Below, piece by piece: positions 31,956 to 64,000 of a DNA stretch of 64,000 bases (the stretch's first letter is position 1; every line of letters starts with the position of its first letter). Below the pieces are notes generated by a model. It saw nothing but the letters and a program-made list of their open reading frames with translations. It did not search any database and was not told the DNA's origin. A program made the translations under genes and the position numbers. The stretch is from Tachypleus tridentatus. Its lineage: Eukaryota > Arthropoda > Merostomata > Xiphosura > Limulidae. Where the stretch lies: positions 2,046,001-2,110,000 of the forward strand of contig NC_134831.1 in NCBI RefSeq assembly GCF_004210375.1, in the 5' to 3' direction.

Positions 31956-32660
31956 AATATTCCAAGAAACGCGTGATAAATATATGGATTAATTATGTAT
32001 AACAAAGTGATATTCCAAGATCAACGTAACCAACAAATGAATTAATTGAGAACCACAACTGCAGACGTTTCTTACGGTGTAAAGCAGAGAGAAAATAAGT
32101 TCTTTCAGTTTAATTAAAAATATCGAGAGTCAGCAAAATATGTTCTCTCCATTATTGATGTCTTGTTTCATTGTATGTATTACACCATGGGTGGGCAAGG
32201 CATCTACACAATATCACAACGTAAATAATTCGATATAAACAGAAACTCTGCTATTAACACAACTATCCACGCATTTCATTATTAAAAACGTGTACTTTTA
32301 CATCACTTAATTCACGTATGTGTCCAGAATACCAGTGAATAATAACATATATTGTGTACTTATCGCAGGCATAATTGCACAATCTCTGGACGACATGTGG
32401 TAACCTGAGAGCCCTTTTAAAACCAGATGTTTCGTGGCTATTGCAACAAAACGAGGCAACCTGTACTAAACTTGAAACGAGGGAAGGTAAACCTGAATAA
32501 CGGTGTAATAGTTTTCCATATTTTAAAAGTTACAACTGTAATTTTGTATTCTAATACAGTGAATTAACTCCAGTTCAACATTACGTGTAGAATTACTTTT
32601 TAGGAGAAAAAGTTTGCACAGTGTGTTAGTGTGTTCACAAAATTTCTCTTACTCTTATAG

Positions 32661-33677
32661 ATGATGCTACACAAGGAATTCATAAATAAAGAATCTCAAG
32701 GTGTGGTACTGGCTGTTGTTGCCGCTCTAGCAAGTGCCATAAAAGAATATGTGGTAAGTTTATTGGATTCGTTGACTTCAACGGGAATTGCCGCGTTACG
32801 TAGTACAGGACAAATGATTTTTCTCCTACCCTTATTGGCAATGAAGGAAAATCCAATATGGTTTAACTGTAAGACAAACTTGGAGCTTGCAGCATCATCT
32901 CTTGTTGGAGGAATAGGAACCTTGGGATTTTACTATGGCTGTTACTACTTACCGGTAGCGGAGGCGGCTGTCATCTACTACAGTATGCCAATCTACACAA
33001 CTCTACTTGGCTGTCTGGTATTGAGGGAAAAGTGCAGCTTGCTGAAACTCCTCAGTCTGATACTAACATTGGTAGGTGTACTTTTAGTTCTTCTTCCAGA
33101 GATTATGGGCGTGAAAGAATGGAAAAACATTTCTGATTTTGAGCTAACGCTAGGCGTAGTTATGACTATTGTGGGAGCTTTGGCCGACGCCATTTTAATT
33201 GTGTGGACTCGTCGACTATCAGACCTGTCTTATTTGTCCGTTAATCTCTGGTGGGCTGTCAACGGTGCTCTCTTTTGTTTGGTCATAACCATAGCAACGG
33301 ACTCGTCAATCATGTGGCGGTGCGGATGGGATGGCGTTTCACTCATAAGTTTGTCTATTCTAGATTTAAACGCAGTGATCTCAACAATTTTGGCGTTGAA
33401 ACGTATGGACTCCGGAAACGTATCCATAGCGTGTACAACGGAAATTATTTTTGCCTTGATCTTGCAAGACTTTGCACAACGTGAAACACCAAGTTTATTG
33501 AGCATTACTGGAGCTATTCTCATTATCATAGCAGTAACAGCTACAACATCGTGTACTGAGAAAGCTTTTTCACTTGCCAAGGAATACTGGCACAATATAT
33601 GTATAGATCAGCGGTTAAGGTCAACAGTTTATAACACTGAAAATCGGGATTCGATACTCACTGTGACAGTAGAGTAA
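32661..33677 (+). CDS. SLC35G-like DMT (EamA) transporter, copy 1
   Basis: A 338-codon membrane protein with about ten helices in two EamA-type halves (residues ~14-148 and ~160-304). Landmarks are ALRSTGQMIFLLPLL, LPVAEAAVIYYSMPIYTTLL and a second half ending LLSITGAILIIIAVTAT. SLC35G-type relatives are small-solute transporters of the cell surface or secretory pathway, and the substrate is unknown. The ATG directly follows a splice acceptor (CTCTTACTCTTATAG), so a 5' non-coding exon is expected. Compared with copies 2 and 3 it has about a dozen amino acid changes, including Asn at 201 and 237 inside helices and Cys at 258. An 89-bp deletion after codon 314 replaces the C-terminal tail. If an intron uses the GT at 33601 and the acceptor at 33804-33805, the tail would instead end NISNVFSKVYYNANAFK at 33852, and the deletion would be intronic. 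Confidence 0.88.
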   Translation: MMLHKEFINKESQGVVLAVVAALASAIKEYVVSLLDSLTSTGIAALRSTGQMIFLLPLLAMKENPIWFNCKTNLELAASSLVGGIGTLGFYYGCYYLPVAEAAVIYYSMPIYTTLLGCLVLREKCSLLKLLSLILTLVGVLLVLLPEIMGVKEWKNISDFELTLGVVMTIVGALADAILIVWTRRLSDLSYLSVNLWWAVNGALFCLVITIATDSSIMWRCGWDGVSLISLSILDLNAVISTILALKRMDSGNVSIACTTEIIFALILQDFAQRETPSLLSITGAILIIIAVTATTSCTEKAFSLAKEYWHNICIDQRLRSTVYNTENRDSILTVTVE

Positions 33678-33852
33678 GTTTTCACTGTACAATCTCCAGT
33701 AGAAAGTGTGCCAGAACTGAACAGATAAACTCATATTGTACAGTCGACAGCGCTACCTTGTAAAAGTTTTGTTGCGTCACAGCATTAGTTTGCTGTTGCT
33801 TTCAGCTAACGTGTTCAGCAAAGTATATTACAATGCCAATGCTTTTAAGTAG

Positions 33853-35775
33853 GATGCTATACGTATTACTGCAATATCCTCGGAGGCAGAGGAGATATGA
33901 TTTACTACACCTCTTGAATAAGTGACAGCAAAGGAATAATCATACATTTAAAAGCTTTTTCCTGTACCAAATCGCGTACCTTCTGTTCAATCTGTATAGT
34001 TCGTCAATTAAATACGACTACAAAATTTAAGAAATTACCTTGTAAGTGTTAGTGAATACGAATGACAATCATGGTTCTGAGTCTTCAGAGATGGAGTAAC
34101 TTTACAATATGACATTTCTTAGGTCTTTTAAAATCGAATATTTGTTTATCTGTAACTTCACTAATTGATAGAAGTGTGTATTGGTGGGTTACAATTGACA
34201 ACTGACATGCCTATCTTTTGTTATAGAGTGACCAATATGGGGCATAAGATAAAAGCTACTAAGGCCCTCTACAGTAAGTTCTCTCAAGCCGTAAAACTGC
34301 GAAAAGCTGTCGTATGACATCAGAAAAACAAGTTTCCTCTTTAAATTTTAAACTTCTTGTGGGTGTATTTCTTTTCTTTTGCAATCGCGTTAAGGTTACC
34401 ATGTTGACAGTTGTTATTGTTATTCTTATATCTTTAACCTTCAATGTCACAAAAGATGTAAAAGTAATCGTTCATTTACACGAAGGGAACGTTTCATATT
34501 GAGAGACTGGTGACGTATAGGAGCCGATAATATATAACCATTTAAAAAAAGAACAAATATTTTCCGACAGAAAATGCGAAATAGTATACTTTACATTACA
34601 AAGACAAAGAATTTATTTGTTACAGAGAGTAATCTAGAGTTTTGTTTGTTGTTTTTTTTGAAGAGCTACACTGAGTTAAGTTAGTCCGAAGAATTTCTTT
34701 CAAAAATTATTAACAATTGCGGATCTTTGGTCGCTATGATTACTTTGATCTCTATGCTAGACAAACAGGTAAATAACAGAAGACGCCAAATATCTGACAC
34801 GTGTTGTTGTGTTATCAAGGAAACAGAGTTTCCAACAAATCTGGGACAGGTAACCCCCAACAACAATAGATTCTATCAGAATGTAATGGGAGTGTTCTGT
34901 AGTAGATAACAGAGCTCTCTGTATGGAAATAATTAGACTGAACAAAGCTGTTAAAATATAAATATCCTTATTATAATAAGGCTGAACAAAACTGGTAAAA
35001 GTATAAATAATCTATTATTATAAACTGCACCAAGATAGTAAAAATATAAACATTATTATGATTAGACTGAATAAAGATGTTAAAAATGTAACCAATATAT
35101 TATAATTACACTAAACAAGGCTGGTAAAGATATAAACAGCGTTATAATTGTACTCAACAAAGTTTGTAAACATTCAATTACATGATACACACAACAAAAA
35201 ACACTGTGTATGGAAAGAAAATAGAAATACACAATATTGTATGAAGTGGTTCAGAATAAAGTTCAAACGCCCACGAACGGAATAATACGAAACGTAAATA
35301 AAAACTAGTTTCAACACCTCACATGCTCTCTTCAGTCCAACACTGAACTGAAGAGTATATGTGGAATGCCAAATGTAGTTTCCATTTAGATTGGGAATTA
35401 TAGTGTTAGTATGGGTTTGAGGTTCATTGCACAGTGTATGGATTTGCATGCAACAAACCGGATGTTATACATATTATTACAATATTCCTGCAAGCAGAAG
35501 AGACATCATCTACTACCAAGAAACAAAGTAACCAGAATAGTGATTCTACAATCATGAAGAACCACGTGTTAGTCAAATCGTAAAAAGGAAATAATATTGA
35601 AGAATACACCAATACGGATCACTACTTGTTTACAGTAAACACACAAGTTATAGAACAAAAAACAGTTAAAAATTCACAAGGTAGGACCAGTTGACGCAAC
35701 TCTAAGATAATTATATGTCTGCGATTGATGACAAGAATCAAACTCGTCGATGATTGGCAGCATGTTAGCGGTCGC
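33853..35775 (+). other. Unit 1 region between transporter and internal promoter
   Basis: This non-coding stretch contains an old, diverged second copy of the sequence just after the transporter stop (compare 33850-33900 with 35457-35515, sharing GGATG.TATAC.TATTA and GCAGA.GAGA). It also contains a minisatellite at 34926-35170. Short open frames here are not conserved with meaning. Confidence 0.5.
34926..35170 (+). repeat. Minisatellite, six ~42-bp units (unit 1)
   Basis: Repeated TTATAATTAGACTGAACAAA-type blocks, each followed by GCTGGTAAA.ATATAAAC. The same tract is at 43373-43617 in unit 2. It is missing from unit 3, where a SINE marks a deletion. Confidence 0.75.
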
Positions 35776-35866
35776 TATTTAAAACCTGATCACTCAAAAT
35801 CGTCTTCAGCACGAGAGTACTGTTTCTACTTTGGTTCAGCTCACTCCCAGAACATATCTGCCATTG
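35776..35866 (+). promoter_or_regulatory. TATA + initiator promoter and short leader exon, unit 1
   Basis: TATTTAAAA (35776-35784) is followed 32 bases on by an initiator-like TTCAGC (A at 35808). The leader then ends at a strong donor, CCATTG|GTAAGT (GT at 35867). A 22-bp tandem copy of the donor region follows. No coding exon is evident nearby. The next same-strand acceptor with a gene is the copy 2 transporter at 41024, 5.2 kb downstream, so this may be that gene's first exon. Confidence 0.5.
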
Positions 35867-36189
35867 GTAAGTATAACCACAGCCATTGGCAAGTATAACC
35901 ACAACAACATCATGTAAGGTCAAGTGAAAGAACGCATATGTCCGAATTCAGTCGCAAAAATGAGATCAAAGTAGCTGCAGGGAGAACAGCTGGAAAGTGG
36001 GTAAATCGGCCCTTTGCAACGCATGTGTGTTTTAGCGAATTTTGTTACTTCAGCGATGCGCCGCTTATACAAACTTCAAGGTTTTGTCTTCTGGTTCGTC
36101 AAATAGCAATTTCCCAAAGGTAACCTGTGACTCCATTTGGTTATAATATTGTCATGTGGCTATAATAATGTCACTAAAAAACATTAACC

Positions 36190-36458
36190 GGCCCGGCCTG
36201 GCCAGGTGGTTTCGGCGCTTCACTCGTAATTTGAGGGTCGCGGATTCGAATCCTGTGGCAACAAACATGTTCGCCCTATCAGTCGTGGGGACGGTATAAT
36301 GTGACGTTCAATCCCACTATTCGTTGGTAAAAGAGCAGCTCAAGAGTTGGGCGTGGGTGGTGATGACTAGCTGTCTTCCCTCTAGACTTATACTGCTAAA
36401 TTAGGGACGGCTATCGCAGATAGCCCTCGAGTAGCTTTGCGCGAAATTCAAAACAAAC
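36190..36458 (+). mobile_element. SINE A, unit 1
   Basis: Complete tRNA-Lys-like SINE, with head GGCCCGGCCTGGCCAGGTGG, B box GGATTCGAATCC and end GTAGCTTTGCGCGAAATTC. A second scrap of SINE tail follows (36460-36500). It has orthologous copies in units 2 and 3. Confidence 0.9.
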
Positions 36459-36553
36459 CCTGTAGTCTTGCACTCCTAAATGATCTAGCGCAGATAGTAT
36501 TTGTTTAACTATACGCTCTATACCTATCATATTATTTTTACTTCTTATTCTGG

Positions 36554-36820
36554 TTCATCTTGGCTCGGTGGTTGTGGTGCTCGACTCTTAATCAGGGTCG
36601 CGGATTCGAATCCCCTTAATACCAAACATGCTTGCACTGTCAGCCGTGGGTCGTTATTAAGTCACAGTCCATCACACTATTTGTAGGTAAAGGAGTAGCC
36701 CCAAGAGGTAGCGGATGGTGGTGATGACAATATGCTTTCCTTCTAGTCTTACACTGCTAAATTAGGAATGGCTAGTGCAGACAGTCTTCGTGTAACTTTG
36801 CGCGAAAATTCGTAACAAGG
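36554..36820 (+). mobile_element. SINE B, unit 1
   Basis: A diverged SINE. Its head keeps CTCGACTCTTAATCAGGGTC, with the CTT anticodon of tRNA-Lys, supporting the origin of the family. The body and GCGCGAAAATTC end are recognisable. Confidence 0.85.
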
Positions 36821-37013
36821 AAAATTGATTAGTCGTGTTACCCTATTTAAACATAGTTTGTTGAAGATGTAATATAAACATTCATCATCACACTCTGATC
36901 CCTTTGTAATGAATCTACAGATAGTATTAAAAAAGTAAGGATATATGAATGATATTTCACGGTCATTTTCGATATTTACGAAAAGCTCCATAAAGTATAC
37001 TTGGACATTCGTT

Positions 37014-37266
37014 TCTTAACCATTCGACTTGTATTCCGAGGGTTGCGGGTTCGACTCCCGTGGCACCAAACATGCTCTCTTTCAGCCGTGGAGGGTGTTA
37101 TAATGTAACGGTCAATCCTACTAGTCGTTGGTAAAAGCGTAATCCAAGAGTTGGCGGTGGGTGGTGATGACTAGCTGCTTTCTCTCTAGTCTTGCATTGA
37201 TAAATAAGGGACGGCTAGCACAGATAGCCTTCGTGTTGCTTTGCGCGAAAATAAAAAAAACAAACC
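37014..37266 (+). mobile_element. SINE C, unit 1
   Basis: The first ~20 bases of the head are worn. GGGTTCGACTCCCGTGGCACC and the whole body to GCGCGAAAATAAAAAAAAC are present. Right after it the spacer begins in units 1 and 2, whereas unit 3 continues into other sequence. Confidence 0.88.
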
Positions 37267-39295
37267 AAAGACGAGTTCTCTGGAAGATAGGTTGTTTAGT
37301 GGTGAGAGAACAAGACAAGCAGATTTATTTAAGGCTCCTGACAAGTATGAAGTTATCGCGGGCTCTCCTGAAGTTGAATGATATGTATTGCATATCTAGG
37401 CGTGAACCAACAAACAGCTCTGATCATGAGACAGGAAAAAAAAACATACTTAGAACATCAAAGAATTTCAAACTATACCTTGTTCTTGAGTGTGCGGGTC
37501 GTGGTTTGAAAGCGCCGCTGGATAAACTAAAAAGGGTCCGACGACATGATGTCGAAAGAGAAATTTCAAGATTCGAAACCAACAAGCGCTCTTAAAAAAA
37601 AAAAAGTTCCGTGGCAAGTGTTTAGTTGTACAGGAAGATGAACCTCCCAACTGAGGTGTTCAGGGATGTCGATATTCCCCTTTGCCCCTGCTCGCGATAG
37701 AATTTTGATGTAAACATTGAGAGTTTTGATTAATTTTTCAGTCTAACTTGTTTTTATTTTACTCGGTTGATCCTGAAGGTTGAAGTAGTTTCGGAGAAGA
37801 GCGAACATAGAAGTCTGGACGAATGAAGGTGACGGAGAGAAAGCAATCAATGCCGGTGTCGTAACGTCGTTCTTGCGTTGTTCGACGACGTGGTTTAGAC
37901 GCCGACTTGACTGAAGTTCGAAATAAAAAGAAGCAAGTCGACGAATTATCACTCAAACGTCCCGTGTTCAGGGCCACGGGGGGCTGAGATCTGTAAATCC
38001 GCACTCCTCAGAGTTCGCTGTAGGAGGAAACGGGACTACCCAGAGAAAACCCACTTTCAAGGCCAGGGCGCCGAATAATCTACACTGTCCTTATCCGAAG
38101 TTGCTGAAAAGGAAATCGGGGTCAGTAAGATATTCAGGAGTAAAATACATACCAATTAAGGCAGAAATGTAAAATTAGGGGGTTGGTTGGTAAATAAGAA
38201 CTCATTCCAATCTTAGGTTACACAGAGATCCGGGAAATAGTGGTATGACATTGAGCTGGAAGGAGGTGATGAAGGCAATCATGGGAATGAAGTTGAGTAT
38301 TCCGGTTGATCTTCCTCGGTGTATTGCTCTACTTCGGTTTGGGACGATTTTTGTCTCCTTGCAGTTTTAGTTTGTGTCTTCTGAGTGTTTGTGAGCTTGT
38401 TGTCTGTTGCGACTTACGCGTCTGTAGTTCTAACTTGCGTGGTTGGGTCTTGTGATTGTATTACATGGAGTTATAGTTGTGGTCTGACAGGATCTGTTAC
38501 TTTTCTTCTGATTAGATCGTTGTTGGAGGTGAATGTCATCGACGGTCTGAGTGACATCGTCTTTAGTCCTGGTGGTGAGTATTGAGATATTGTTGGCAGT
38601 AGAGGTTAGCGGCATCGATGAAGTTGTAAGGTTTGCTGGACGTGAGGTATTATGGTTGTCAAGCTCATTGCATTGGAGTGGAAATTATCGTCGGCGGGTA
38701 TGTTCGGGTTTGTAATGAAGATGGTGTAAGATGCAGCCATGGTTGCGTACGTAGTCTGCATCTTGTTTATGTTGACTCGCTACTTTTATGAAATGAGTTG
38801 GTAGATCTGTAGTCCTGAATCGGATTCTGTGTGCTGCATGGAGTTTCGAGGACGTGGCTATTACTAGAGAAAGTTGTATTTCAACTGGGGTTATAGAAAG
38901 ATGAACATTACTTAAGAGTACAGGCTGCTATAATTTTTTATGGAAGAGCACTGGACGTTGTTGTTTGCGGTTGCATTTAAGAAAATGACAAAGAACCCAC
39001 CAAAGCAGTCAAAACCTTGGATGTTAATAAAACAACAAATAATAAAGTAGGTATAACCAAAACGTAAATTACAGAACAAAACCATCAAAATCATGTTGGA
39101 TTTACACTGGTCACTTCAAAACGGAAAAGACAAATTTCAACATAAATAGAGAAAATCTAAAATAATGGTACAGGTAAAATAAACCACCACCACAAAACTC
39201 AGTCATAAACGAAGAAACATAAGGACGTACAGCCAACCCCAACCAGAGATCAAACGTTGCAAAACGATGAGGATAGTCCTAAACACCATTCCCCA

Positions 39296-39296
<1 letters not shown>

Positions 39297-39333
<37 letters not shown>
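39297..39333 (+). repeat. (TA)n microsatellite, unit 1
   Basis: About 18 TA units sit directly before SINE D. The unit 2 counterpart (47751-47777) is about 10 bases shorter. Confidence 0.95.
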
Positions 39334-39335
<2 letters not shown>

Positions 39336-39336
<1 letters not shown>

Positions 39337-39620
39337 GGCCTGGCATGGCCTAGCGCGTTAAGGCGTGTGCTTCGTATTCTGAGGATCGCGGGTTCGCGCC
39401 CGAGTCGTGCCAAACATGCTCGCCCTCCCAGCCGTGGGGGCGTTATAATGTACGGTCAATCCCACTATTCGTTGGTAAAAGAGTAGCCCAAGAATTGGCG
39501 GTGGGTGGTGATTACTAGCTGCCTTCCCTCTAGTCTTACACTGCTAAATTAGGGACGGCTAGCACAGATAGCCCTCGAGTAGCTTTGTGCGAAATTCCAA
39601 AAACAACAACAACAACAAAA
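39336..39620 (+). mobile_element. SINE D, unit 1
   Basis: A complete, well-preserved SINE, from GGCCTGGCATGGCCTAGCGC to GCGAAATTCCAAAAACAAC. It is flanked on both sides by GTATATATATA, so it inserted into the TA repeat. This looks like the youngest subfamily in the window. Confidence 0.93.
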
Positions 39621-40190
39621 GTATATATATATTTTCAAAATAAAATAAAAAGGCCACCTGTAAACTAGACTCCACAGTAGTTTAGTTATTAACAAATAAA
39701 CATTGAAATAGGATTTATGTAATTGTTGTGTGGTTAATGCCTATATATGTTTGGACTTATTATCGCGTCTTAAAAACAGGTATAAACCTGTTTTATACAC
39801 AACTTTGATTTTCAATTACTCATTTGAATATTTAATGCACAAGAGACAGAGCACGAAAAAGACCGACAACTAGATAAAGGTTAGTTTGTTTTCCCGTAGC
39901 TGAAAAATTTTACATATATCTACAGTTTTAATTAATTTTGTTCCTATTCTAAGTTAAACAGCATTCACTTCTAGTCTTTATTAATTTTCTTCCTATGTTA
40001 TGCCACACGGCACTCATTTCTTATAGCTTTAATTACTTTTCTTCTTACGATAAGTTATAGGATACTCGTTACTTTGACACCTTTCTTTTCACTTCACATT
40101 CAAAGTTGGAGGGTGGGCCTTTTTTTGATTGTGCATTTTTGTTTTCTTTGAGAGATATTTAGAGTTTATCTTGTGATTACCAAAGACGAG

Positions 40191-40345
40191 ACGCCCGGCA
40201 TAGCCAGGTGGTTAGGACTCTCGACTCGAAATCTGAAGGTCGTGGGTTTGAATCCCGTGGCACCAAACATGCTCCCTCTTTCAGCCGTGGAGGGCATTAT
40301 AATGTAACGGTCAATCCTACTATACGTTGGTAAAAGCGTAACCCA
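40191..40345 (+). mobile_element. SINE E, cut off at the unit 1/2 junction
   Basis: The head and first half are intact, but the element stops at GGTAAAAGCGTAACCCA and the next unit starts about ten bases later. The missing 3' half marks the duplication breakpoint. The same cut is seen at the unit 2/3 junction. Confidence 0.88.
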
Positions 40346-41023
40346 ATCCCATCAAATATTCCAAGAAACGCATTGTCAATAGATGGATTAATTGAGAACC
40401 ACAACTGCAGACGTTTCTTACGGTGTAAAGCAGAGAGAAAATAAGTTCTTTCAGTTTAATTAAAAATATCGAGAGTCAGCAAAATGTGTTCTCTCCATTA
40501 TTGATGTCTTGTTTCATTGTATGTATTACACCATGAGTGGGCAAGGCATCTACACAATATCACAACGTAAATAATTCTATATAAACAGGAACTCTGCTAT
40601 TAACACAACTATCCACGCGTTTCACGAGACTACTATTTCATTATTAAAAACGTGTACTTTTACATTACTTAATCCACGTATGTGTCCAGAATACCAGTGA
40701 GTAATAATATGTATTGTGTACTTATCGCAGGCACAATTGCACAATCTCTGGACGACATGTGGTAACCTGAGAGCCCTTTTAAAACCAGATGTTTCGTGGC
40801 TATTGCAACAAAACGAGGCAACCTGTACTAAATTTGAAATGAGGGAAGGTAAACCTGAATAACGGTGTAATAGTTTTCCATATTTTAAAAGTTACAACTG
40901 TAATTTTGTATTCTAATACAGTGAATTAACGATAGTTCAACATTACGTGTAGAATTACTTTTTAGGAGAATGAAGTTTGCACAGTGTGTTAGTGTGTTCA
41001 CAAAATTTCTCTTACTCTTGTAG

Positions 41024-42040
41024 ATGATGCTACACAAGGTATTCATAAATAAAGAATCTCAAGGTGTGGTACTGGCTGTTGTTGCCGCTCTAGCAAGTGC
41101 CATAAAAGAATATGTGGTAAGTTTATTGGATTCGTTGACTCCAACGGGAATTGCCGCGTTACGTAGTATAGGACAAATGATTTTTCTACTACCCTTATTG
41201 GCAATGAAGGAAAATCCAATATGGTTTAACTGTAAGACAAACTTGGAGCTTGCAGCATCATCTTTTGTTGGAGGAATAGGAACCTTGGGATTTTACTATG
41301 GCTGTTACTACTTACCGGTAGCGGAGGCGGCTGTCATCTACTACAGTATGCCAATCTACACAACTCTACTTGGCTGTCTGGTATTGAGGGAAAAGTGCAG
41401 CTTGCTGAAACTCCTCAGTCTGATACTAACATTGGTAGGTGTACTTTTAGTTCTTCTTCCAGAGATTATGGGCGTGAAAGAATGGAAAAACTTTTCTCAT
41501 TTTGAACTGACGCTAGGCGTAGTTATGACTATTGTGGGAGCTTTGGCCGACGCCATTTTAATTGTGTGGACTCGTCGACTATCAGACCTGTCTTATTTGT
41601 CCGTTAATCTCTGGTGGGCTGTCATCGGTGCTCTCTTTTGTTTGGTCATAACCATAGCAACGGACTCGTCAATCATGTGGCGGTGCGGATGGGATGGCGT
41701 TTCACTCATAAGTTTGTCTATTCTAGACTTAATCGGAGTGATCTCAACAGTTTTGGCGTTGAAACGTATGGACTCCGGAAACGTATCCATAGCGTTTACA
41801 ACGGAAATTATTTTTTCCTTGATCTTGCAAGACTTTGCACAACGTGAAACACCAAGTTTGTTGAGCATTACTGGAGCTATTCTCATTATCATAGCAGTAA
41901 CAGCTACAACACCGTGTACTGAGAAAGCTTTTTCACTTGCCAAGGAATACTGGCACAACATATGTACGTATATATCTCGTCGAGATCGGAAAGTGACATG
42001 TGAAGCAGAGGTGGAGAAACTGATTCATGATGTGATTTGA
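41024..42040 (+). CDS. SLC35G-like DMT (EamA) transporter, copy 2
   Basis: A 338-codon, ten-helix transporter, 4 amino acid changes from copy 3. Approximate helices are at residues 14-33, 42-60, 73-93, 98-118, 125-146, 160-182, 190-212, 226-247, 254-272 and 280-301, in two EamA-like repeats. The unspliced frame ends with a basic/acidic tail (CTYISRRDRKVTCEAEVEKL). Alternatively a donor at 41964 (T|GTACGT) and the acceptor CTGTTGCTTTCAG (42256-42257) would join in phase to a 15-codon last exon ending at 42304. The ATG abuts the acceptor CTCTTACTCTTGTAG. The likely promoter and leader exon lie in unit 1 (35776-35866). Confidence 0.9.
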   Translation: MMLHKVFINKESQGVVLAVVAALASAIKEYVVSLLDSLTPTGIAALRSIGQMIFLLPLLAMKENPIWFNCKTNLELAASSFVGGIGTLGFYYGCYYLPVAEAAVIYYSMPIYTTLLGCLVLREKCSLLKLLSLILTLVGVLLVLLPEIMGVKEWKNFSHFELTLGVVMTIVGALADAILIVWTRRLSDLSYLSVNLWWAVIGALFCLVITIATDSSIMWRCGWDGVSLISLSILDLIGVISTVLALKRMDSGNVSIAFTTEIIFSLILQDFAQRETPSLLSITGAILIIIAVTATTPCTEKAFSLAKEYWHNICTYISRRDRKVTCEAEVEKLIHDVI

Positions 42041-43372: not shown

Positions 43373-43617
43373 AATAATTAGACTGAACAAAGCTGTTAAA
43401 ATATAAATATCCTTATTATAATAAGGCTGAACAAAACTGGTAAAAGTATAAATAATTTATTATTATAAACTGCACCAAGATAGTAAAAATATAAACATTA
43501 TTATGATTAGACTGAATAAAGATGTTAAAAATGTCACCATTATATTATAATTACACTAAACAAGGCTGCTAAAGATATAAACAGCGTTATAATTGTACTC
43601 AACAAAGTTTGTAAACA
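43373..43617 (+). repeat. Minisatellite, unit 2
   Basis: Counterpart of the ~42-bp repeat tract of unit 1, nearly identical in unit number and sequence. Confidence 0.75.
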
Positions 43618-44221
43618 TTCTATTACATGATACACACAACAAAAAACACTGTGTATGGAAAGAAAATAGAAATACACAATATTGTATGAAGTGGTTCAGA
43701 ATAAAGTTCAAACGCCCACGAACGGAATAATACGAAACGTAAATAAAAACTAGTTTCAACACCTCACATGCTCTCTTCAGTCCAACACTGAACTGAAGAG
43801 TATATGTGGAATGCCAAATGTAGTTTCCATTTAGATTGGGAATTATAGTGTTAGTATGGGTTTGAGGTTCATTGCACAGTGTATGGATTTGCATGCAACA
43901 AACCGGATGTTATACATATTATTACAATATTCCTGCAAGCAGAAGAGACATCATCTACTACCAAGAAACAAAGTAACCAGAATAGTGATTCTACAATGAT
44001 GAAGAACCACGTGTTAATCAAATCGTAAAAAAGGAAATAATATTGAAGAATACACCAATACGGATCACTACTTGTTTACAGTAAACACACAAGTTATAGA
44101 ACAAAAAACAGTTAAAAATTCACAAGGTAGGACCAGTTGACGCAACTCTAAGATAATTATATGTCTGCGATTGATGACAAGAATCAAACTCGTCGATGAT
44201 TGGCAGCATGTTAGCGGTCGC

Positions 44222-44312
44222 TATTTAAAACCTGATCACTCAAAATCGTCTTCAGCACGAGAGTACTGTTTCTACTTTGGTTCAGCTCACTCCCAGAACA
44301 TATCTGCCATTG
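44222..44312 (+). promoter_or_regulatory. TATA + initiator promoter and short leader exon, unit 2
   Basis: TATTTAAAA (44222-44230), initiator A at 44254 and donor GT at 44313, all as in unit 1. By position it could drive the copy 3 transporter at 49495. Confidence 0.5.
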
Positions 44313-44636
44313 GTAAGTATAACCACAGCCATTGGCAAGTATAACCACAACAACATCATGTAAGGTCAAGTGAAAGAACGCATATGTCCGAATTCAGTCG
44401 CAAAAAAATGAGATCAAAGTAGCTGCAGGGAGAACAGCTGGAAAGTGGGTAAATCGGCCCTTTGCAACGCATGTGTGTTTTAGCGAATTTTGTGACTTCA
44501 GCGATGCGCCGCTTATACAAACTTCAAGGTTTTGTCTTCTGGTTCGTCAAATAGCAATTTCCCAAAGGTAACCTGTGACTCCATTTGGTTATAATATTGT
44601 CATGTGGCTATAATAATGTCACTAAAAACCATTAAC

Positions 44637-44906
44637 CGGACCGGCCTGGCCAGGTGGTTTCGGCGCTTCACTCGTAATTTGAGGGTCGCGCATTCGAATC
44701 CTGTGGCAACAAACATGTTCGCCCTATCAGTCGTGGGGACGGTATAATGTGACGTTCAATCCCACTATTCGTTGGTAAAAGAGCAGCTCAAGAGTTGGGC
44801 GTGGGTGGTGATGACTAGCTGCCTTCCCTCTAGACTTATACTGCTAAATTAGGGACGGCTATCGCAGATAGCCCTCGAGTAGCTTTGCGCGAAATTCAAA
44901 ACAAAC
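44637..44906 (+). mobile_element. SINE A, unit 2
   Basis: Duplicate of the unit 1 SINE A at the same place, with few changes. Confidence 0.9.
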
Positions 44907-45003
44907 CCTGTAGTCTTGCACTCCTAAATGATCTAGCGCAGATAGTATTCGTTTAACTATACGCTCTATACCTATCATATTATTTTTACTTCTTATTCTG
45001 GTT

Positions 45004-45269
45004 CATCTTGGCTCGGTGTTTGTGGTGCTCGACTCTTAATCAGGGTCGCGGATTCGAATCCCCCTTAATACCAAACATGCTTGCACTGTCAGCCGTGGGT
45101 CGTTATTAAGTCGCAGTCCATCACACTATTTGTAGGTAAAGGAGTAGCCCCAAGAGGTAGCGGATGGTGGTGATGACAATATGCTTTCCTTCTAGTCTTA
45201 CACTGCTAAATTAGGAATGGCTAGTGCAGATAGTCTTCGTGTAACTTTGCGCGAAAATTCGTAACAAGG
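45004..45269 (+). mobile_element. SINE B, unit 2
   Basis: Duplicate of the unit 1 SINE B, keeping the CTCTTAATC anticodon-loop sequence. Confidence 0.85.
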
Positions 45270-45462
45270 AAAATTGATTCGTCGTGTTACCCTATTTAAA
45301 CATAGTTTGTTGAAGATGTAATATAAACATTCATCATCACACTCTGATCCCTTTGTAATGAATCTACAGATAGTATTAAAAAGTAAGGATATATGAATGA
45401 TATTTCACGGTCATTTTCGATATTTACGAAAAGCTCCATAAAGTATACTTGGACATTCGTTT

Positions 45463-45714
45463 CTTAACCATTCGACTTGTATTCCGAGGGTTGCGGGTTC
45501 GACTCCCGTGGCACCAAACATGCTCTCTTTCAGCCGTGGAGGGTGTTATAATGTAACGGTCAATCCTACTAGTCGTTGGTAAAAGCGTAATCCAAGAGTT
45601 GGCGGTGGGTGGTGATGACTAGCTGCTTTCTCTCTAGTCTTGCATTGATAAATAAGGGACGGCTAGCACAGATAGCCTTCGTGTTGCTTTGCGCGAAAAT
45701 AAAAAAAACAAACC
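45463..45714 (+). mobile_element. SINE C, unit 2
   Basis: Duplicate of the unit 1 SINE C, followed by the spacer. Confidence 0.88.
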
Positions 45715-45723
45715 AAAGACGAG

Positions 45724-48617
45724 TTCTCTGGAAGATAGGTTGTTTAGTGGTGAGAGAACAAGACAAGCAGATTTATTTAAGGCTCCTGACAAGTATGAAG
45801 TTATCGCGGGCTCTCCTGAAGTTGAATGATATGTATTGCATATCTAGGCGTGAACCAACAAACAGCTCTGATCATGAGACAGGAAAAAAAACATACTTAG
45901 AACATCAAAGAATTTCAAACTATACCTTGTTCTTGAGTGTGCGGGTCGTGGTTTGAAAGCGCCGCTGGATAAACTAAAAAGGGTCCGACGACATGATGTC
46001 GAAAGAGAAATTTCAAGATTCGAAACCAACAAGCGCTCTTAAGAAAAAAAAAGTTCCGTGGCAAGTGTTTAGTTGTACAGGAAGATGAACCTCCCAACTG
46101 AGGTGTTCAGGGATGTCGATATTCCCCTTTGCCCCTGCTCGCGATAGAATTTTGATGTAAACATTGAGAGTTTTGATTAATTTTTCAGTCTAACTTGTTT
46201 TTATTTTACTCGGTTGATCCTGAAGGTTGAAGTAGTTTCGGAGAAGAGCGAACATAGAAGTCTGGACGAATGAAGGTGACGGAGAGAAAGCAATCAATGC
46301 CGGTGTCGTAACGTCGTTCTTGCGTTGTTCGACGACGTGGTTTAGACGCCGACTTGACTGAAGTTCGAAATAAAAAGAAGCAAGTCGACGAATTATCACT
46401 CAAACGTCCCGTGTTCAGGGCCACGGGGGGCTGAGATCTGTAAATCCGCACTCCTCAGAGTTCGCTGTAGGAGGAAACGGGACTACCCAGAGAAAACCCA
46501 CTTTCAAGGCCAGGGCGCCGAATAATCTACACTGTCCTTATCCGAAGTTGCTGAAAAGGAAATCGGGGTCAGTAAGATATTCAGGAGTAAAATACATACC
46601 AATTAAGGCAGAAATGTAAAATTAGGGGGGGTTGGTTGGTAAATGAGAACTCATTCCAATCTTAGGTTACACAGAGATCCGGGAAATAGTGGTATGACAT
46701 TGAGCTGGAAGGAGGTGATGAAGGCAATCATGGGAATGAAGTTGAGTATTCCGGTTGATCTTCCTCGGTGTATTGCTCTACTTCGGTTTGGGACGATTTT
46801 TGTCTCCTTGCAGTTTTAGTTTGTGTCTTCTGAGTGTTTGTGAGCTTGTTGTCTGTTGCGGCTTACGCGTCTGTAGTTCTAACTTGCGTGGTTGGGTCTT
46901 GTGATTGTATTACATGGAGTTATAGTTGTGGTCTGACAGGATCTGTTACTTTTCTTCTGATTAGATCGTTGTTGGGAGGTGAATGTCATCGACGGTCTGA
47001 GTGACATCGTCTTTCGTCCTGGTGGTGAGTATTGAGATATTGTTGGCAGTAGAGGTTAGCGGCATCGATGAAGTTGTAAGGTTTGCTGGACGTGGGGTAT
47101 TATGGTTGTCAAGCTCATTGCATTGGAGTGGAAATTATCGTCGGCGGGTATGTTCGGGTTTGTAATGAAGATGGTGTAAGATGCAGCCATGGTTGCGTAC
47201 GTAGTCTGCATCTTGTTTATGTTGACTCGCTACTTTTATGAAATGAGTTGGTAGATCTGTAGTCCTGAATCGGATTCTGTGTGCTGCATGGAGTTTCGAG
47301 GACGTGGCTATTACTAGAGAAAGTTGTATTTCAACTGGGGTTATAGAAAGATGAACATTACTTAAGAGTACAGGCTGCTATAATTTTTTTATGGAAGAGC
47401 ACTGGACGTTGTTGTTTGCAGTTGCATTTAAGAAAATGACAAAGAACCCACCAAAGCAGTCAAAACCTTGGATGTTAATAAAACAACAAATAATAAAGTA
47501 GGTATAACCAAAACGTAAATTACAGAACAAAACCATCAAAATCATGTTGGATTTACACTGGTCACTTCAAAACGGAAAAGACAAATTTCAACATAAATAG
47601 AGAAGATCTAAAATAATGGTACAGGTAAAAAAAAACACCACCACCACAAAACTCAGTGATAAACGAAGAAACATAAGGACGTACAGCCAACCCCAACCAG
47701 AGATCAAACGTTGCAAAACGATGAGGATAGTCCTAAACACCATTCCCCAGTATATATATATATATATATATATATATGAGGGCCTGGCATGGCCTAGCGC
47801 GTTAAGGCGTGTGCTTCGTAATCTGAGGGTCGCGGGTTCGCGCCCGAGTCGTGCCAAACATGCTCGCCCTCCCAGCCGTGGGGGCGTTATAATGTACGGT
47901 CAATCCCACTATTCGTTGGTAAAAGAGTAGCCCAAGAATTGGCGGTGGGTGGTGATTACTAGCTGCCTTCCCTCTAGTCTTACACTGCTAAATTAGGGAC
48001 GGCTAGCACAGATAGCCCTCGAGTAGCTTTGTGCGAAATTCCAAAAACAACAACAAAAGTATATATATATTTTCAAAATAAAATAAAAAGGCCACCTGTA
48101 AACTAGACTCCACAGTAGTTTAGGTATTAACAAATAAACATTGAAATAGGATTTATGTAATTGTTGTGTGATTAATGCCTATATATGTTTGGACTTATTA
48201 TCGCGTCTTAAAAACAGGTATAAACCTGTTTTATACACAACTTTGATTTTCAATTACTCATTTGAATATTTAATGCACAAGAGACAGGGCACGAAAAAGA
48301 CCGACAACTAGATAAAGGTTAGTTTGTTTTCCCGTACCTGATAAATTTTACATATATCTACAGTTTTAATTAATTTTGTTCCTATTCTAAATTAAACAGC
48401 ATTCACTTCTAGTCTTTATTAATTTTCTTCCTATGTTATGCCACACGGTCCTCATTTCCTATAGCTTTAATTACTCTTCTTCTTACGATAAGTTATAGGA
48501 TACTCGTTACTTTGACACCTTTCTTTTCACTTCACATTCAAAGTTGGAGGGTGGGCCTTTTTTTGATTGTGCGTGTTTTGTTTTCTTTGAGAGATATTTA
48601 GAGTTTATCTTGTGATA
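45724..48617. repeat. 2.9-kb spacer between units 2 and 3
   Basis: Near-identical to 37276-40178, with the same flanking ACCAAAGACGAG repeats (45712-45723 and 48618-48629), TA microsatellite (47751-47777) and SINE D. Confidence 0.6.
47779..48058 (+). mobile_element. SINE D, unit 2
   Basis: Duplicate of the unit 1 SINE D, with fewer AAC repeats in its tail and a shorter TA tract before it. Confidence 0.93.
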
Positions 48618-48628
48618 ACCAAAGACGA

Positions 48629-48784
48629 GACGCCCGGCATAGCCAGGTGGTTAGGACTCTCGACTCGAAATCTGAGGGTCGTGGGTTTGAATCCCGTGGC
48701 ACCAAACATGCTCCCTCTTTCAGACGTGGAGGGCATTATAATGTAACGGTCAATCCTACTATACGTTGGTAAAAGCGTAACCCA
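48629..48784 (+). mobile_element. SINE E, cut off at the unit 2/3 junction
   Basis: Same truncation point as in unit 1, so the junction was copied rather than made twice. Confidence 0.88.
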
Positions 48785-49494
48785 ATCCCATCAAATATTC
48801 CAAGAAACGCATTATCAATAGATGGATTAATTATGTATAACATAATTCCAAGATCAACGTAATCAACAAATGAATTAATTGAGAACCACAACTGCAGACG
48901 TTTCTTACGGTGTAAAGCAGAGAGAAAATAAGTTCTTTCAGTTTAATTAAAAATATCAAGAGTCAGCAAAATGTGTTCTCTACATTATTGATGTCTTGTT
49001 TCATTGTATGTATTACACCATGGGTGGGCAAGGCATCTACACAATATCACAACGTAAATAATTCTATATAAACAGAAACTCTGCTATTAACACAACTATC
49101 CACGCATTTCATTATTAAAAACGTGTACTTTTACATTACTTAATCCACGTATGTGTCCAGAATACCAGTGAGTAATAATATGTATTGTGTACTTATCGCA
49201 GGCACAATTGCACAATCTCTGGACGACATGTGGTAACCTGAGAGCACTTTTAAAACCAGATGTTTCGTGGCTATTGCAACAATACGAGGCAACCTGTACT
49301 AAATTTGAAATGCGGGAAGGTAAACCTGAATAACGGTGTAATAGTTTTCCATATTTTAAAAGTTACAACTGTAATTTTGTATTCTAATACAGTGAATTAA
49401 CGCCAGTTCAACATTACGTGTAGAATTACTTTTTAGGAGAATGAAGTTTGCACAGTGTGTTAGTGTGTTCACAAAATTTCTCTTACTCTTGTAG

Positions 49495-50511
49495 ATGATG
49501 CTACACAAGGTATTCATAAATAAAGAATCTCAAGGTGTGGTACTGGCTGTTGTTGCCGCTCTAGCAAGTGCCATAAAAGAATATGTGGTAAGTTTATTGG
49601 ATTCGTTGACTCCAACGGGAATTGCCGCGTTACGTAGTATAGGACAAATGATTTTTCTCCTACCCTTATTGGCAATGAAGGAAAATCCAATATGGTTTAA
49701 CTGTAAGACAAACTTGGAGCTTGCAGCATCATCTCTTGTTGGAGGAATAGGAACCTTGGGATTTTACTATGGCTGTTACTACTTACCGGTAGCGGAGGCG
49801 GCTGTCATCTACTACAGTATGCCAATCTACACAACTCTACTTGGCTGTCTGGTATTGAGGGAAAAGTGCAGCTTGCTGAAACTCCTCAGTCTGATACTAA
49901 CATTGGTAGGTGTACTTTTAGTTCTTCTTCCAGAGATTATGGGCGTGAAAGAATGGAAAAACTTTTCTCATTTTGAACTGACGCTAGGCGTAGTTATGAC
50001 TATTGTGGGAGCTTTGGCCGACGCCATTTTAATTGTGTGGACTCGTCGACTATCAGACCTGTCTTATTTGTCCGTTAATCTCTGGTGGGCTGTCATCGGT
50101 GCTCTCTTTTGTTTGGTCATAACCATAGCAACGGACTCGTCAATCATGTGGCGGTGCGGATGGGATGGCGTTTCACTCATAAGTTTGTCTATTCTGGACT
50201 TAATCGGAGTGATCTCAACAGTTTTGGCGTTGAAACGTACGGACTCCGGAAACGTATCCATAGCGTTTACAACGGAAATTATTTTTGCCTTGATCTTGCA
50301 AGACTTTGCACAACGTGAAACACCAAGTTTGTTGAGCATTACTGGAGCTATTCTCATTATCATAGCAGTAACAGCTACAACACCGTGTACTGAGAAAGCT
50401 TTTTCACTTGCCAAGGAATATTGGCACAATATATGTACGTATATAACTCGTCGAGATCGGAAAGTGACATGTGAAGCAGAGGTGGAGAAACTGATTCATG
50501 ATGTGATTTGA
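49495..50511 (+). CDS. SLC35G-like DMT (EamA) transporter, copy 3
   Basis: An intact 338-codon transporter of the same ten-helix EamA type. It differs from copy 2 at four residues by eye: Leu for Phe at 81, Thr for Met near 248, Ala for Ser near 265, and Thr for Ser in the tail (ITRRDRK). The ATG follows the acceptor CTCTTACTCTTGTAG. The alternative last exon is available here too (donor GT at 50435, acceptor AG at 50727-50728, stop at 50773-50775). Its likely promoter is in unit 2 (44222-44312). Confidence 0.9.
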   Translation: MMLHKVFINKESQGVVLAVVAALASAIKEYVVSLLDSLTPTGIAALRSIGQMIFLLPLLAMKENPIWFNCKTNLELAASSLVGGIGTLGFYYGCYYLPVAEAAVIYYSMPIYTTLLGCLVLREKCSLLKLLSLILTLVGVLLVLLPEIMGVKEWKNFSHFELTLGVVMTIVGALADAILIVWTRRLSDLSYLSVNLWWAVIGALFCLVITIATDSSIMWRCGWDGVSLISLSILDLIGVISTVLALKRTDSGNVSIAFTTEIIFALILQDFAQRETPSLLSITGAILIIIAVTATTPCTEKAFSLAKEYWHNICTYITRRDRKVTCEAEVEKLIHDVI

Positions 50512-51800
50512 ATACCTGTCTTTCGATAGGTCAGCGGTTAAGGTCAACAGTTTATAACACTGAAAATCGGGATTCGATACTCACTGTGACAGTAGAGTAA
50601 GTTTTCACTGTACAATCTCCAGTAGAAAGTGTGCCAGAACTGAACAGATAAACTCATATTGTACAGTCGACAGCGCTACCTTGTAAAAGTTTTGTTGCGT
50701 CACAGCATTAGTTTGCTGTTGCTTTCAGCTAACGTGTTCAGCAAAGTATATTACAATGCCAATGCTTTTAAGTAGGATGCTATACGTATTACTGCAATAT
50801 CCTCGGAGGCAGAGGAGATATGATTTACTACACCTCTTGAATAAGTGACAGCAAAGAAATAATCATACATTTAAAAGCTTTTTCCTGTACCAAATCGCGT
50901 ACCTTCTGTTCAATCTGTATAGTTAGTCAATTAAATACGACTACAAAATTTAAGAAATTGCCTTGTAAGTGTTAGTGAATACGAGTGACAATCATGGTTC
51001 TGAGTCTTCAGAGATGGAGTAACTTTACAATATGACATTTCTTAGGTCTTTTAAAATCGAATATTTGTTTATCTGTAACTTCACTAATTGATGGAAGTGT
51101 ATACTGGTGGATTACAATTGACAATTGATAAGCTATCTTTTGTTATAGAGTGACCAATATGGGGCACAAGATAAAAGCTACTTAAGCTCTCTACAGTAAG
51201 TTCTCTCAAGCCGTAATATTGCGAAAAGCTGTCGTATGACATCAGAAAAACAATTTTCCTCTTTAAATTTTAAACTTCTTGTGGGTGTATTTCTTTTCTT
51301 TTGCAATCGCTTAAAGGTTACCATGTTGACAGTTGTTATTCTTATGATATCTTTAACCTTCAATGTTACAAAAGATGTGAAAGTAATCGTTCATTTACAC
51401 GAAGGGAACGTTTCATATTGAGAGACTGGTGACGTATAGGAGCCGATAATATATAACCATTTAAAAAAAGAACAAATATTTTCCGACAGAAAATACAAAA
51501 TAGTGTACTTTACATTACAAAGACAAAGAATTTATTTGTTACAGAGAGTAATCTAGAGTTTTGTTTGTTGTTTTTTTTGAAGAGCTATACTGAGTTAAGT
51601 TAGTCTGAAGAATTTCTTTCAAAAATTATTAACAATTGCGGATCTTTGGTCGCTATGATTACTTTGATCTCTATGCCAGACAAACAGGTAAAGAGCAAAA
51701 GACACCAAATATCTGACACGTGTTGTTGTGTTATCAAGGAAACATTTCCCAACAAATCTGGGACAGGTAACCCCCAATAACAATAGATTCTATCAGAATG

Positions 51801-52083
51801 GGCCCGGCATGGCCAAGCATGTTAAGGCGTGCGACTCGTAATCTGAGGGTCGCGGGTTCACATCCCCGTCGCGTCAAACATGCTCGCCCTTTCACCCGTG
51901 GGGGAGTTATAAAGTTACAGTCAATCCCACTATTTGTTGGTAAAAGTGTAGCCCATGAGTTGGCGGTGGGTGGTGATGACTAGATGCCTTCCCTCTCGTC
52001 TTCCACTGCTAAATTAGGGACGGCTAGCATTGATAGCCCTCGAGTAGCTTTGTGCGAAATTCAAAAACAAACAAACAAACAAG
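51801..52083 (+). mobile_element. SINE F, only in unit 3, at a deletion
   Basis: A complete SINE with a (CAAA)n tail. Its left edge abuts TATCAGAATG of the unit and its right edge GTTAGTATGGG. The 521 bp that lie between these points in unit 2 are absent. No target duplication is seen. Confidence 0.9.
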
Positions 52084-52500
52084 CAATATTCCGTTAGTAT
52101 GGGTTTGAAGTTTATTGTACAGTGTATGGATTTGCATGCAATAAACCAGATGTTATACATATTATTGCAATATTCCTGCAGGCAGAAGTGACATCATCTA
52201 TTACCAAGAAACAAAGTAATCAGAGTAGTGATTCCTACGGTTTTGGTTTAAAGCCCACAGAATATCATTTCTACAATCATGAAGAACCACGTGTTAGTCA
52301 AATCGTAAAAAGGAAATAATATTGAAGTATACACCAATACGGATCACTACTTGTTTACAGTAAACACACAAGTTATAGAACAAAAAACCGTTAAAAATTC
52401 ACAAGGTAGGACTAGTTGACGCAACTCTAAGATAATTATATGTCTGCGATTGATGACAAGAATCAAACTCGTCGATGATTGGCAGCATGTTAGCGGTCGC

Positions 52501-52590
52501 TATTTAACACCTGATCACTCAAAATCGTCTTCAGCACGCGAGTACTGTTTCTACTTTGGTTCAGCTCACTCCCAGAACATATCTGCCATT
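52501..52590 (+). promoter_or_regulatory. Weakened promoter block, unit 3
   Basis: The TATA is changed to TATTTAACA, initiator A is at 52533, and the donor reads GCCATT|GTTAAG instead of GGTAAGT. The 22-bp donor-region duplication of units 1 and 2 is absent. No transporter lies downstream in the window, so it looks orphaned. Confidence 0.4.
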
Positions 52591-52874
52591 GTTAAGTATA
52601 ACCACAACAACATCATGTAAGGTCAAGTGAAAGAATGCATATGTCCGAATTCAGTCGCAAAAAATGAGATCAAAGTAGCTGCAGGGAGAACAGCCGGAAA
52701 GTGGGTAAATCGGCCCTTTGCAACGCATATGTGTTTTAGCGAATTTTGTTACTTCAGCGATGCGCCGCTTATACAAACTTCAAGGTTTTGTCTTCTGGTT
52801 CGTCAAATAGCAATTTCCCAGAGGTAACCTGTGACTCCATTTGGTTATAATAATGTCACTAAAAACTATTAACC

Positions 52875-53350
52875 GGCCCGGCCTGGCCAGGTGGTTTCGG
52901 CGCTTCACCCGTAATTTGAGGGTCGCGGATTCAAATCCTGTGGCAACAAATATGTTCGCCCTATCAGTCGTGGGGACGGTATAATGTGACGTTCAATCCC
53001 ACTATTTGTTGGTAAAAGAGTAGCTCAACAGCTGAGCGTGGGTGGTGATGACTAGCTGCCTTCCTTCTAGACCAGGGGTTCTTAACCAGGGGTGCGAAGA
53101 TGATTCCCAAGGGGTGCGAGGATGCCCATGAATAATTAAAGCAAATCTATATTTTTACATAAGAGTATGCTTTATATTTTTAGCTTTTTTTATATTTAAG
53201 TTTCCAGGGGGTGCGAGAAATGATTACTGATTTGAAAGGGTTGCAAACACTGAAAAAGGTTAAGAACCACTGCTCTAGACTTACACTGCTAAATTAGGGA
53301 CGGCGATCGCAGATAACCCTCGAGTAGTGTTGCACGAAATTCAAAACAAA
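52875..53350 (+). mobile_element. SINE A, unit 3, split by a MITE
   Basis: Same SINE as in units 1 and 2, interrupted at 53073-53272 by a 200-bp element and continuing afterwards to its GCACGAAATTC end. Confidence 0.88.
53073..53272. mobile_element. 200-bp hAT-type MITE
   Basis: Terminal inverted repeats are CAGGGGTTCTTAACC and GGTTAAGAACCACTG. It is flanked by an 8-bp target duplication TTCTAGAC/CTCTAGAC (one mismatch), the hAT signature. The interior has no coding capacity and repeats GGGGTGCGA. It is only in unit 3, so it inserted after the triplication. Confidence 0.9.
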
Positions 53351-53446
53351 CCCTCTAGTCTTGCACTCCTAAATGATCTAGCGCAGATAGTATTCGTTTA
53401 ACTATATGCTCTATACCTATCATATTATTTTTACTTCTTATTCTGG

Positions 53447-53714
53447 TTCATCTTGGCTCGGTGGTTGTGGTGCTCGACTCTTAATCAGGGTCGCGGATTC
53501 GAATCCCCCTTAATACCAAACATGCTTGCACTGTCAGCCGTGGGTCGTTATTAAGTCACAGTCCATCACACTATTTGTAGGTAAAGGAGTAGCCCCAAGA
53601 GGTAGCGGATGGTGGTGATGACAATATGCTTTCCTTCTGGTCTTACACTGCTAAATTAGGAATGGCTAGTGCAGATAGTCTTCGTGTAGCTTTGCGCGAA
53701 AATTCGTAACAAGG
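53447..53714 (+). mobile_element. SINE B, unit 3
   Basis: Third copy of SINE B, in the same position as in units 1 and 2. Confidence 0.85.
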
Positions 53715-53908
53715 AAAATTGATTCGTCGTGTTACCCTATTTAAACATAGTTTGTTGAAGATGTAATATAAACATTCATCATCACACTCTGACCCCTTTG
53801 TAATGAATCTACAGATAGTATTAAAATGTTAGGATATATGAGTGATATTTCACGGTCATTTTCGATATTTACGAAAAACTCCATAAAATATACTTGGACA
53901 TTCGTTTC

Positions 53909-54163
53909 TTAGCCATTCGACTTGTAATCCGAGGGTCGCGGGTTCGAATCCCCGTCGCACCAAGGATGCCCTTTCAGCAGCGGGCGCGTTATAGTGTGAC
54001 GGTCAATCCCACCATTCATTAGTAAAATAGTAGCCCAAGAGTTGGCAGTGGGTGGTGATGACTAGCTGCCATCCCTCTTGTCTTCCACTACTAAATTAGG
54101 GACGGATAGCACAGGTAACGCTCGTGTAACTCTGCGCGAAATTCACAAGAAACAAAACAAACA
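53909..54163 (+). mobile_element. SINE C, unit 3
   Basis: It occupies the SINE C position but is closer to the family consensus (GGTTCGAATCCCCGTCGCACC) than the unit 1 and 2 copies, which read CGACTCCCGTGGCACC. It may have been altered by conversion with another SINE, or be the older state. Confidence 0.85.
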
Positions 54164-54560
54164 TTTTTTAATCAGGAAACAGAACGAGATAGTACTCAAA
54201 TTCATGTTTTTCAAAATTACAGAATCCTCCTGCCCATTTATAACGTCAAGAAACGTGTTTTGTAATAAGCAGTAAATAGAAAATTTAAATAGAATAAAAC
54301 AACCATTAATTGTACATGAATAAGCGAAGATTGAAAACAACCATTAATTGTACATGAATAAGCGACGATTGAACTGAGAAATAACCTGTCCTTGGTTATA
54401 CGTAACCACTTCTTTCACATCCAAAGGCTTTGTTGCGAGTCTGAGTGCTCGTAACGCTTAAAGCCGGGTTCCCATACTCGTGGTGGGCACAGTAAAGATA
54501 GCCCATTGTGACGTTTTAAACTTAACAACAAAACTAATAATTTTAATGTCGACAAGTTAT
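54164..54560 (+). repeat. Right flank, old duplicate of 56200-56560
   Basis: It shares ordered landmarks with 56200-56560: CAAAATTACAGAA/CAAAGTTACAGAA, CCTGCCCATTT, AATAAAACAACCA, GCGAAGATTGAAA, CGCTTAAAGCC and GATAGCCCATTGTG. It holds a 38-bp tandem duplication at 54296-54371. There is no gene. Confidence 0.65.
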
Positions 54561-63737: not shown

Positions 63738-64000
63738 CTGCAACACAGACAAAGCATTTTCACACACCAAATAAACGTGGTAAACATTTTATTGAAACTT
63801 TTCACCAAAGGAGCTTGAAGTACAGATATGCAGTTACAGAGAAAAAAACAAAAAGTAAACAAAGTGTGAAAACAGTAATATTAAGATAAAATCTTCTTCA
63901 CCCATAACGTTTTGAAGCTTATTACTATGACATCTATGTAAAACCAACAAAATCAAAATAATAAAACAGCCTAAAATCATGTCCGAGTTAACCAACACAA

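Follow-up and report, generated by a model that had tools for sequence, protein, structure and literature searches.

The 64,000-nucleotide (nt) stretch of the horseshoe crab Tachypleus tridentatus genome analyzed here (RefSeq assembly GCF_004210375.1, contig NC_134831.1, positions 2,046,001 to 2,110,000; hereafter, the window) contains a tandem array of three neighboring genes for EamA-type transporters. The middle gene lies in a unit that is a hybrid of the units on either side, and the array is followed by gene-less pieces of an older unit. The locus is best read as a small birth-and-death tandem array of a transporter with an EamA/DMT-type fold, built in several duplication steps and a crossover, a reading to which we assign a probability of roughly 80%. 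Its gene-less remnant, younger pair, probable crossover hybrid, and short interspersed elements (SINEs) at one joint make the locus a compact record of how a tandem array grows and shrinks. As a result on a single gene it is ordinary, and the array is a further case within a large expanded family.

Three gene copies and their units

Three open reading frames of 338 codons each occupy positions 32661-33677 (copy 1), 41024-42040 (copy 2), and 49495-50511 (copy 3) of the window, all on the plus strand, as are all other features of the array described below. A first-pass annotation, made from the sequence alone, had described three intact 338-codon genes, and all three frames are indeed open; their start-to-start distances are 8363 and 8471 nt, slightly off the 8399 and 8439 nt proposed there. 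Self-comparison of the window recovered three tandem units: unit 1 (31952-40345) and unit 2 (40346-48789), whose limits are approximate, and unit 3 (48790-54163), which ends without the 3-kb right segment of the other two. Units 1 and 2 are 98.5% alike across 6.8 kb, far above chance, and the limits given earlier, 31956-54163, are correct for the intact units. The presence of three neighboring transporter genes in tandem is thereby confirmed.

The first-pass annotation also held that the proteins of units 2 and 3 differ at only four residues, which is the case (residues 81, 249, 265, and 318), and that the noncoding parts of the units are as similar as the coding parts. Coding and flanking differences number 19 of 942 and 32 of 1296 sites between units 1 and 2 (P = 0.57, Fisher exact test), 18 of 942 and 37 of 1296 between units 1 and 3 (P = 0.17), and 7 of 942 and 19 of 1296 between units 2 and 3 (P = 0.16), bearing out the second of these statements. 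Overlooked there was the C-terminus of copy 1, which after residue 314 is entirely unlike that of copies 2 and 3. The difference arises because an 88-bp stretch present in copy 2 (41967-42054) and in copy 3 is missing from copy 1, and the equal length of all three frames despite this difference is a coincidence.

Immediately before the ATG of copy 1 is a pyrimidine-rich stretch ending in TATAG (32627-32660), with TTGTAG in copies 2 and 3, which resembles a splice acceptor. In 38 of 72 family loci, as against 15 of 72 shuffled sequences (one shuffle each), an acceptor-like site lies no more than 90 bases before the first ATG in the longest frame. Given this enrichment and the acceptor-like stretch itself, an intron in the 5' untranslated region is likely in all three copies, judging from the sequence.

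Tandem copies this similar could be produced by an assembly that places two haplotypes, or a collapsed repeat, side by side, and a divergence of 1% is no larger than allelic differences can be in some animals. Against this, the window contains no undetermined bases (N count of 0), and units 1 and 3 are 1.8 to 3.6% apart, with private insertions and deletions and SINEs. Neither of the flank stretches tested has a second near-identical copy in the genome: the 39 other matches listed for the left stretch cover only its first 177 of 591 bases at 84 to 93% identity, and the sole other match to the right flank stretch is 79% identical. Moreover, neither a hybrid unit nor a fossil unit is expected from an assembly error. 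These observations weaken the worry about an artefact and leave such an origin very improbable.

The middle unit as a hybrid

In four clean alignment blocks, the three units present 118 sites with two states, and the 19 that separate unit 2 from the other two were set aside, leaving 99 that group unit 2 with one neighbor or the other. To the left of a single main switch, unit 2 agrees with unit 3 at 37 sites and with unit 1 at 11; to the right, it agrees with unit 1 at 39 sites and with unit 3 at 12. None of 20,000 shuffles produced a switch as strong. The middle unit is therefore a hybrid, like unit 3 on its left and like unit 1 on its right. The switch itself, the proposed crossover point, falls at 34208-34245 in unit-1 coordinates, corresponding to about 42659-42696 in unit 2 as estimated from the register of family D13.

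The hybrid is equally diverged from both of its parents, as a single crossover predicts. Units 2 and 3 have 23 differences in 2236 sites (1.03%) on the left side of the switch, and units 1 and 2 have 55 in 6072 (0.91%) on its right side (P = 0.61). When the right-hand range is narrowed to 34400-39300, units 1 and 2 differ at 34 of 4889 sites (0.70%; P = 0.15). Units 1 and 3 are more diverged than this in every block (1.8 to 3.6%). With the fossil unit described below as an outgroup, the units group in the same manner: of the two shared-derived sites on the left, both place unit 2 with unit 3, and of the two on the right, both place it with unit 1. An unequal crossover between two misaligned units, X and Y, must yield the order X, then a unit with the left part of Y and the right part of X, then Y, and the observed order of the units fits this expectation.

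A decayed fourth unit and the proposed growth of the array

Just beyond the limits assigned to the array by the first-pass annotation, and overlooked there, are the remains of a gene-less, decayed fourth unit at 55190-56542. Three pieces can be aligned with unit 1: 55190-55301 resembles 35993-36105 (86.7%), 55817-55960 resembles 32323-32461, upstream of the gene (77%), and 56040-56221 resembles 36838-37021 (81.5%). Between these pieces and the intact units, the smallest proportion of differing sites is 14 of 112 and the largest 31 of 138, or about 13 to 22%. Across the genome, the stretches that hold the head and tail pieces have four matches each, all of them in the three units or the fossil, and the middle piece, like 35993-36105, is reached by 4 of the 38 matches to its stretch, which are again the three units and the fossil. 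No coding remnant beyond the three copies was found in 144 kb around the array.

The tail of the fossil unit is fused, without a SINE, to a 69% copy (56212-56542) of the sequence that lies to the right of unit 3 (54164-54534). It follows that the original right end is that of unit 3, that the SINE arrived later, and that the 3-kb segment in units 1 and 2 is more recent. The possibility that unit 3 is itself a truncated unit was rejected, since the fossil joins the unit tail straight to the sequence found to the right of unit 3.

The SINE that closes the shared part of the unit, at 37022-37270 in unit 1 and at the corresponding site of unit 3 (53912-54163), is of the tRNA type by eye and has no Rfam match. 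Between units 1 and 3, the bodies of these SINEs show 41 differences in 215 sites, as opposed to 7 in 188 in the adjoining sequence to their left, a disparity that suggests recombination between SINEs. To the right of the SINE, and in units 1 and 2 only, is the 3-kb segment (37271-40345 in unit 1), which contains a SINE and a dispersed stretch of 0.95 kb (38024-38969, also present in unit 2). Among the 40 candidates, out of 12077, that were scored in a genome search with this segment, the 0.95-kb stretch is 72 to 73% like at least 10 places on contig C1, at 156 and 167.6 to 168.4 Mb, and part of it is 76% like a place on C6, indicating that the segment contains dispersed repeats. No long frame occurs in the 0.95-kb stretch, the longest stop-to-stop interval being 129 codons in one of the C1 copies and 84 in the window.

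As a separate matter, the idea that the gene is carried by a dispersed mobile element found no support: two of the searched unit stretches match this locus only. A third stretch has 33 of its 38 matches elsewhere, but these are short (fewer than 200 bases) and 67 to 86% identical.

The first-pass annotation had called the array a young tandem triplication. Its youth holds for the recent steps, with divergences of about 1% and of 1.8 to 3.6%; a single triplication does not hold, given the hybrid middle unit and the older fossil unit. We propose instead five steps. An old tandem duplication would have come first; one of its products would have lost its gene, and persists as the fossil pieces, and a SINE would then have inserted into the end of the unit that survived. 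A second duplication would have produced X (now unit 1) and Y (now unit 3). In X, all sequence from the SINE rightward would be a different segment of 3 kb, probably joined through SINE-SINE recombination. X may next have mispaired with Y, whereupon a single unequal crossover at about 34.2 kb would have yielded the present arrangement of X, hybrid, and Y. Finally, the 88-bp change, most simply a deletion, would have replaced the C-terminus of copy 1.

Several observations weigh against this history. The fossil pieces are out of unit order, the one like 35993 preceding the one like 32323, so that either two fossil units or a rearrangement is needed. Among the 99 informative sites, 23 oppose the switch pattern; the grouping of left and right parts from three sequences assumes approximately equal rates, and only four sites are polarized by the fossil. 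In the protein tree, copies 1 and 2 group together (support of 99/76) on a very short branch, contrary to the DNA signal in the coding part. Lastly, the right parts of units 1 and 2 are unevenly diverged, with differences near 0 at 37.3 to 39 kb and 8 in 250 sites near 39.8 kb, and later conversion is therefore likely.

This unevenness, which suggests that some conversion occurred, also bears on a rival scheme of two successive simple tandem duplications in which gene conversion later overwrote part of unit 2, either its left part from unit 3 or its right part from unit 1. Conversion would yield the same local similarity, but it requires one extra event, whereas crossover alone explains both the single main switch, in the orientation required of a crossover, and the fact that the hybrid has diverged equally from its two parents. 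We consider the conversion scheme distinctly unlikely, and favor the unequal crossover.

Transporter proteins, their constraint, and the genomic family

All three proteins match the EamA family (PF00892), with 92.9, 101.9, and 104.6 bits for copies 1, 2, and 3, respectively, against a Pfam cut-off of 28.2 bits, and with E-values from 2.7e-26 to 6.6e-30. A structure of copy 3, the copy with the highest score, was predicted from 70 family members with a mean predicted local distance difference test score (pLDDT) of 84.6, and the model matches 39 PDB chains at an E-value of 0.001 or lower. The best of these are LicB (7paf), 5i20, the CMP-sialic acid transporter (6oh3), nucleotide-sugar transporters, and SLC35B1 (9gs5), with TM-scores normalized by the query of at most 0.73. 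The four named chains, which we take to belong to the DMT superfamily, are like the model in structure (TM-scores of 0.65 to 0.73) but are just 12 to 18% identical to copy 3 in sequence, as would distant members be. In searches of PDB sequences, a profile of the family finds 7 entries, including LicB, 5i20, SLC35B1, and the CMP-sialic acid transporter, and copy 3 alone finds only LicB (E = 0.74). On this evidence the three proteins are EamA/DMT-superfamily transporters for which a DMT-type, all-helix fold is predicted, supporting the earlier call of a membrane transporter array in the form of an SLC35-superfamily-like one.

The more specific label, SLC35G-like, was taken over from the first-pass annotation, and we use it as an assumption; no named SLC35G sequence occurs among the PDB sequence matches (1 for copy 3 and 7 for the family profile). 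Human SLC35G1 has been reported as a citrate carrier (PMC11542916) and mouse SLC35G3 as a carrier of UDP-N-acetylglucosamine (UDP-GlcNAc) (PMC12611266). These are likewise animal EamA-type carriers, and the trio shares the predicted DMT-type fold. The trio differs in that its stem is long (1.51 changes per column in the tree described below) and its nearest paralogue in the genome is only 32 to 36% identical, and the substrates of SLC35G proteins are thus not transferable to it. The proteins, if expressed as we suppose, would be multihelix proteins that carry or exchange a small metabolite, either anionic or linked to a nucleotide, across a membrane of the secretory pathway or the cell membrane.

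The copies appear to differ in their level of constraint. Based on few changes, the ratio of nonsynonymous to synonymous divergence (dN/dS) is 0.68 between copies 1 and 2 and 0.63 between copies 1 and 3; between copies 2 and 3, which over the first 314 codons are separated by 3 replacement changes and 4 silent ones, it is 0.23 (P = 0.06 for 3 replacements among 7 changes against the neutral proportion). Over the same codons, the changes private to copy 1 comprise 11 replacements and 4 silent changes, which is the neutral proportion (P = 0.77). At 7 of these 11 positions, the residue of copy 1 is less common in the family than that of copies 2 and 3; at the other 4, the reverse is true. Two of the copy 1 residues, asparagines at 201 and 237, fall within helices of the predicted model, and copy 1 also scores lowest against Pfam. 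Together these features suggest that copy 1 is under weaker constraint, which is not proof of its loss, and copies 2 and 3 are probably functional.

The first-pass annotation had taken the expansion as a sign of selection for dosage or for a new substrate. Consistent with retention by selection are the three open frames, the low dN/dS between copies 2 and 3, and the new C-terminus of copy 1. The higher ratios and neutral private replacements of copy 1, the asparagines within its helices and its low Pfam score, and the lack of significantly greater conservation in coding than in flanking sequence all point the other way, as does the occurrence of sixteen further clusters of three or more matches in the genome. 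Selection of this kind is unsupported, and we regard it as very unlikely.

The search of the genome (2.17 Gb in 205 contigs, with the window at C7:2046001-2110000) with copy 2 as the query returned at least 119 scored matches from 374 candidates, a lower bound on the size of the family. Linkage of matches within 500 kb places them in 35 groups, with 106 of the 119 in groups of two or more, and the trio is one of 17 groups of at least three. Among the clusters are those at C4:31.8-33.6 Mb (17 matches), C4:19.3-20.0 Mb (9 matches), and C9:88.2-88.9 Mb (8 matches). Besides the 3 members of the trio there are 116 matches, of which 85 loci were examined and 31 left out; a frame of at least 280 codons starting with methionine is present in 67 of the 85.

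The 18 loci with shorter frames were omitted from the tree, which thus comprises 70 proteins. In this tree the trio forms a single clade (support of 100/100), and its neighbor is a single gene on C2 (L004), the nearest paralogue mentioned above. This placement is unsure because the long branches of both may meet falsely, as the tree-building tool warned.

A family of more than 100 transporter-like matches in one arthropod genome merits comparative study and is a more interesting lead than the array itself. It is conceivable that horseshoe crabs hold a very large, mostly tandem SLC35G-like expansion with single-exon frames, of which the window shows a live site of birth and death where copy 1 is gaining a new C-terminus and perhaps also a new role; this broader proposal is tentative and, on balance, unlikely. 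We found no literature linking SLC35G with horseshoe crabs or Limulus, and none on an expansion of SLC35G or EamA proteins in horseshoe crabs. The trio is well above the 70% identity used as a criterion for tandem duplicates in a published horseshoe-crab study, the main text of which contains neither "solute carrier" nor "transporter" (0 occurrences each).

The genome also yields 19 matches above the cut-off to the coagulogen family (PF02035; best score, 100.2 bits), as against none in 14 control genomes, although this control is weak because all 14 are prokaryotes. The coagulogen family is not known outside horseshoe crabs, and its presence marks the genome as that of a horseshoe crab.

In the surroundings of the array, 4 of 10 translated stretches have a Pfam family at an E-value of 0.01 or lower: a weak hAT end, a RING finger, a Tc1-type helix-turn-helix, and a weak DDE match. 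The weak hAT transposase dimerization-region match, at L012:4489-5376 on the minus strand (E = 0.0091), is below the family cut-off. Remains of a Tc1/Sleeping Beauty-type transposase lie at 13598-14600. Two repeat copies about 73% alike, at 5110-8529 and 26470-29952, have translations that by eye resemble a retrotransposon of the long interspersed element type; no Pfam match was obtained with the one piece of these repeats that was tested. No RNA gene was detected in the window by Rfam at the gathering level. A neighboring gene contributes a RING-finger exon at 63614-63880 on the minus strand, the closest structure to which is that of the E3 ligase Arkadia (2kiz; E = 1.7e-16).

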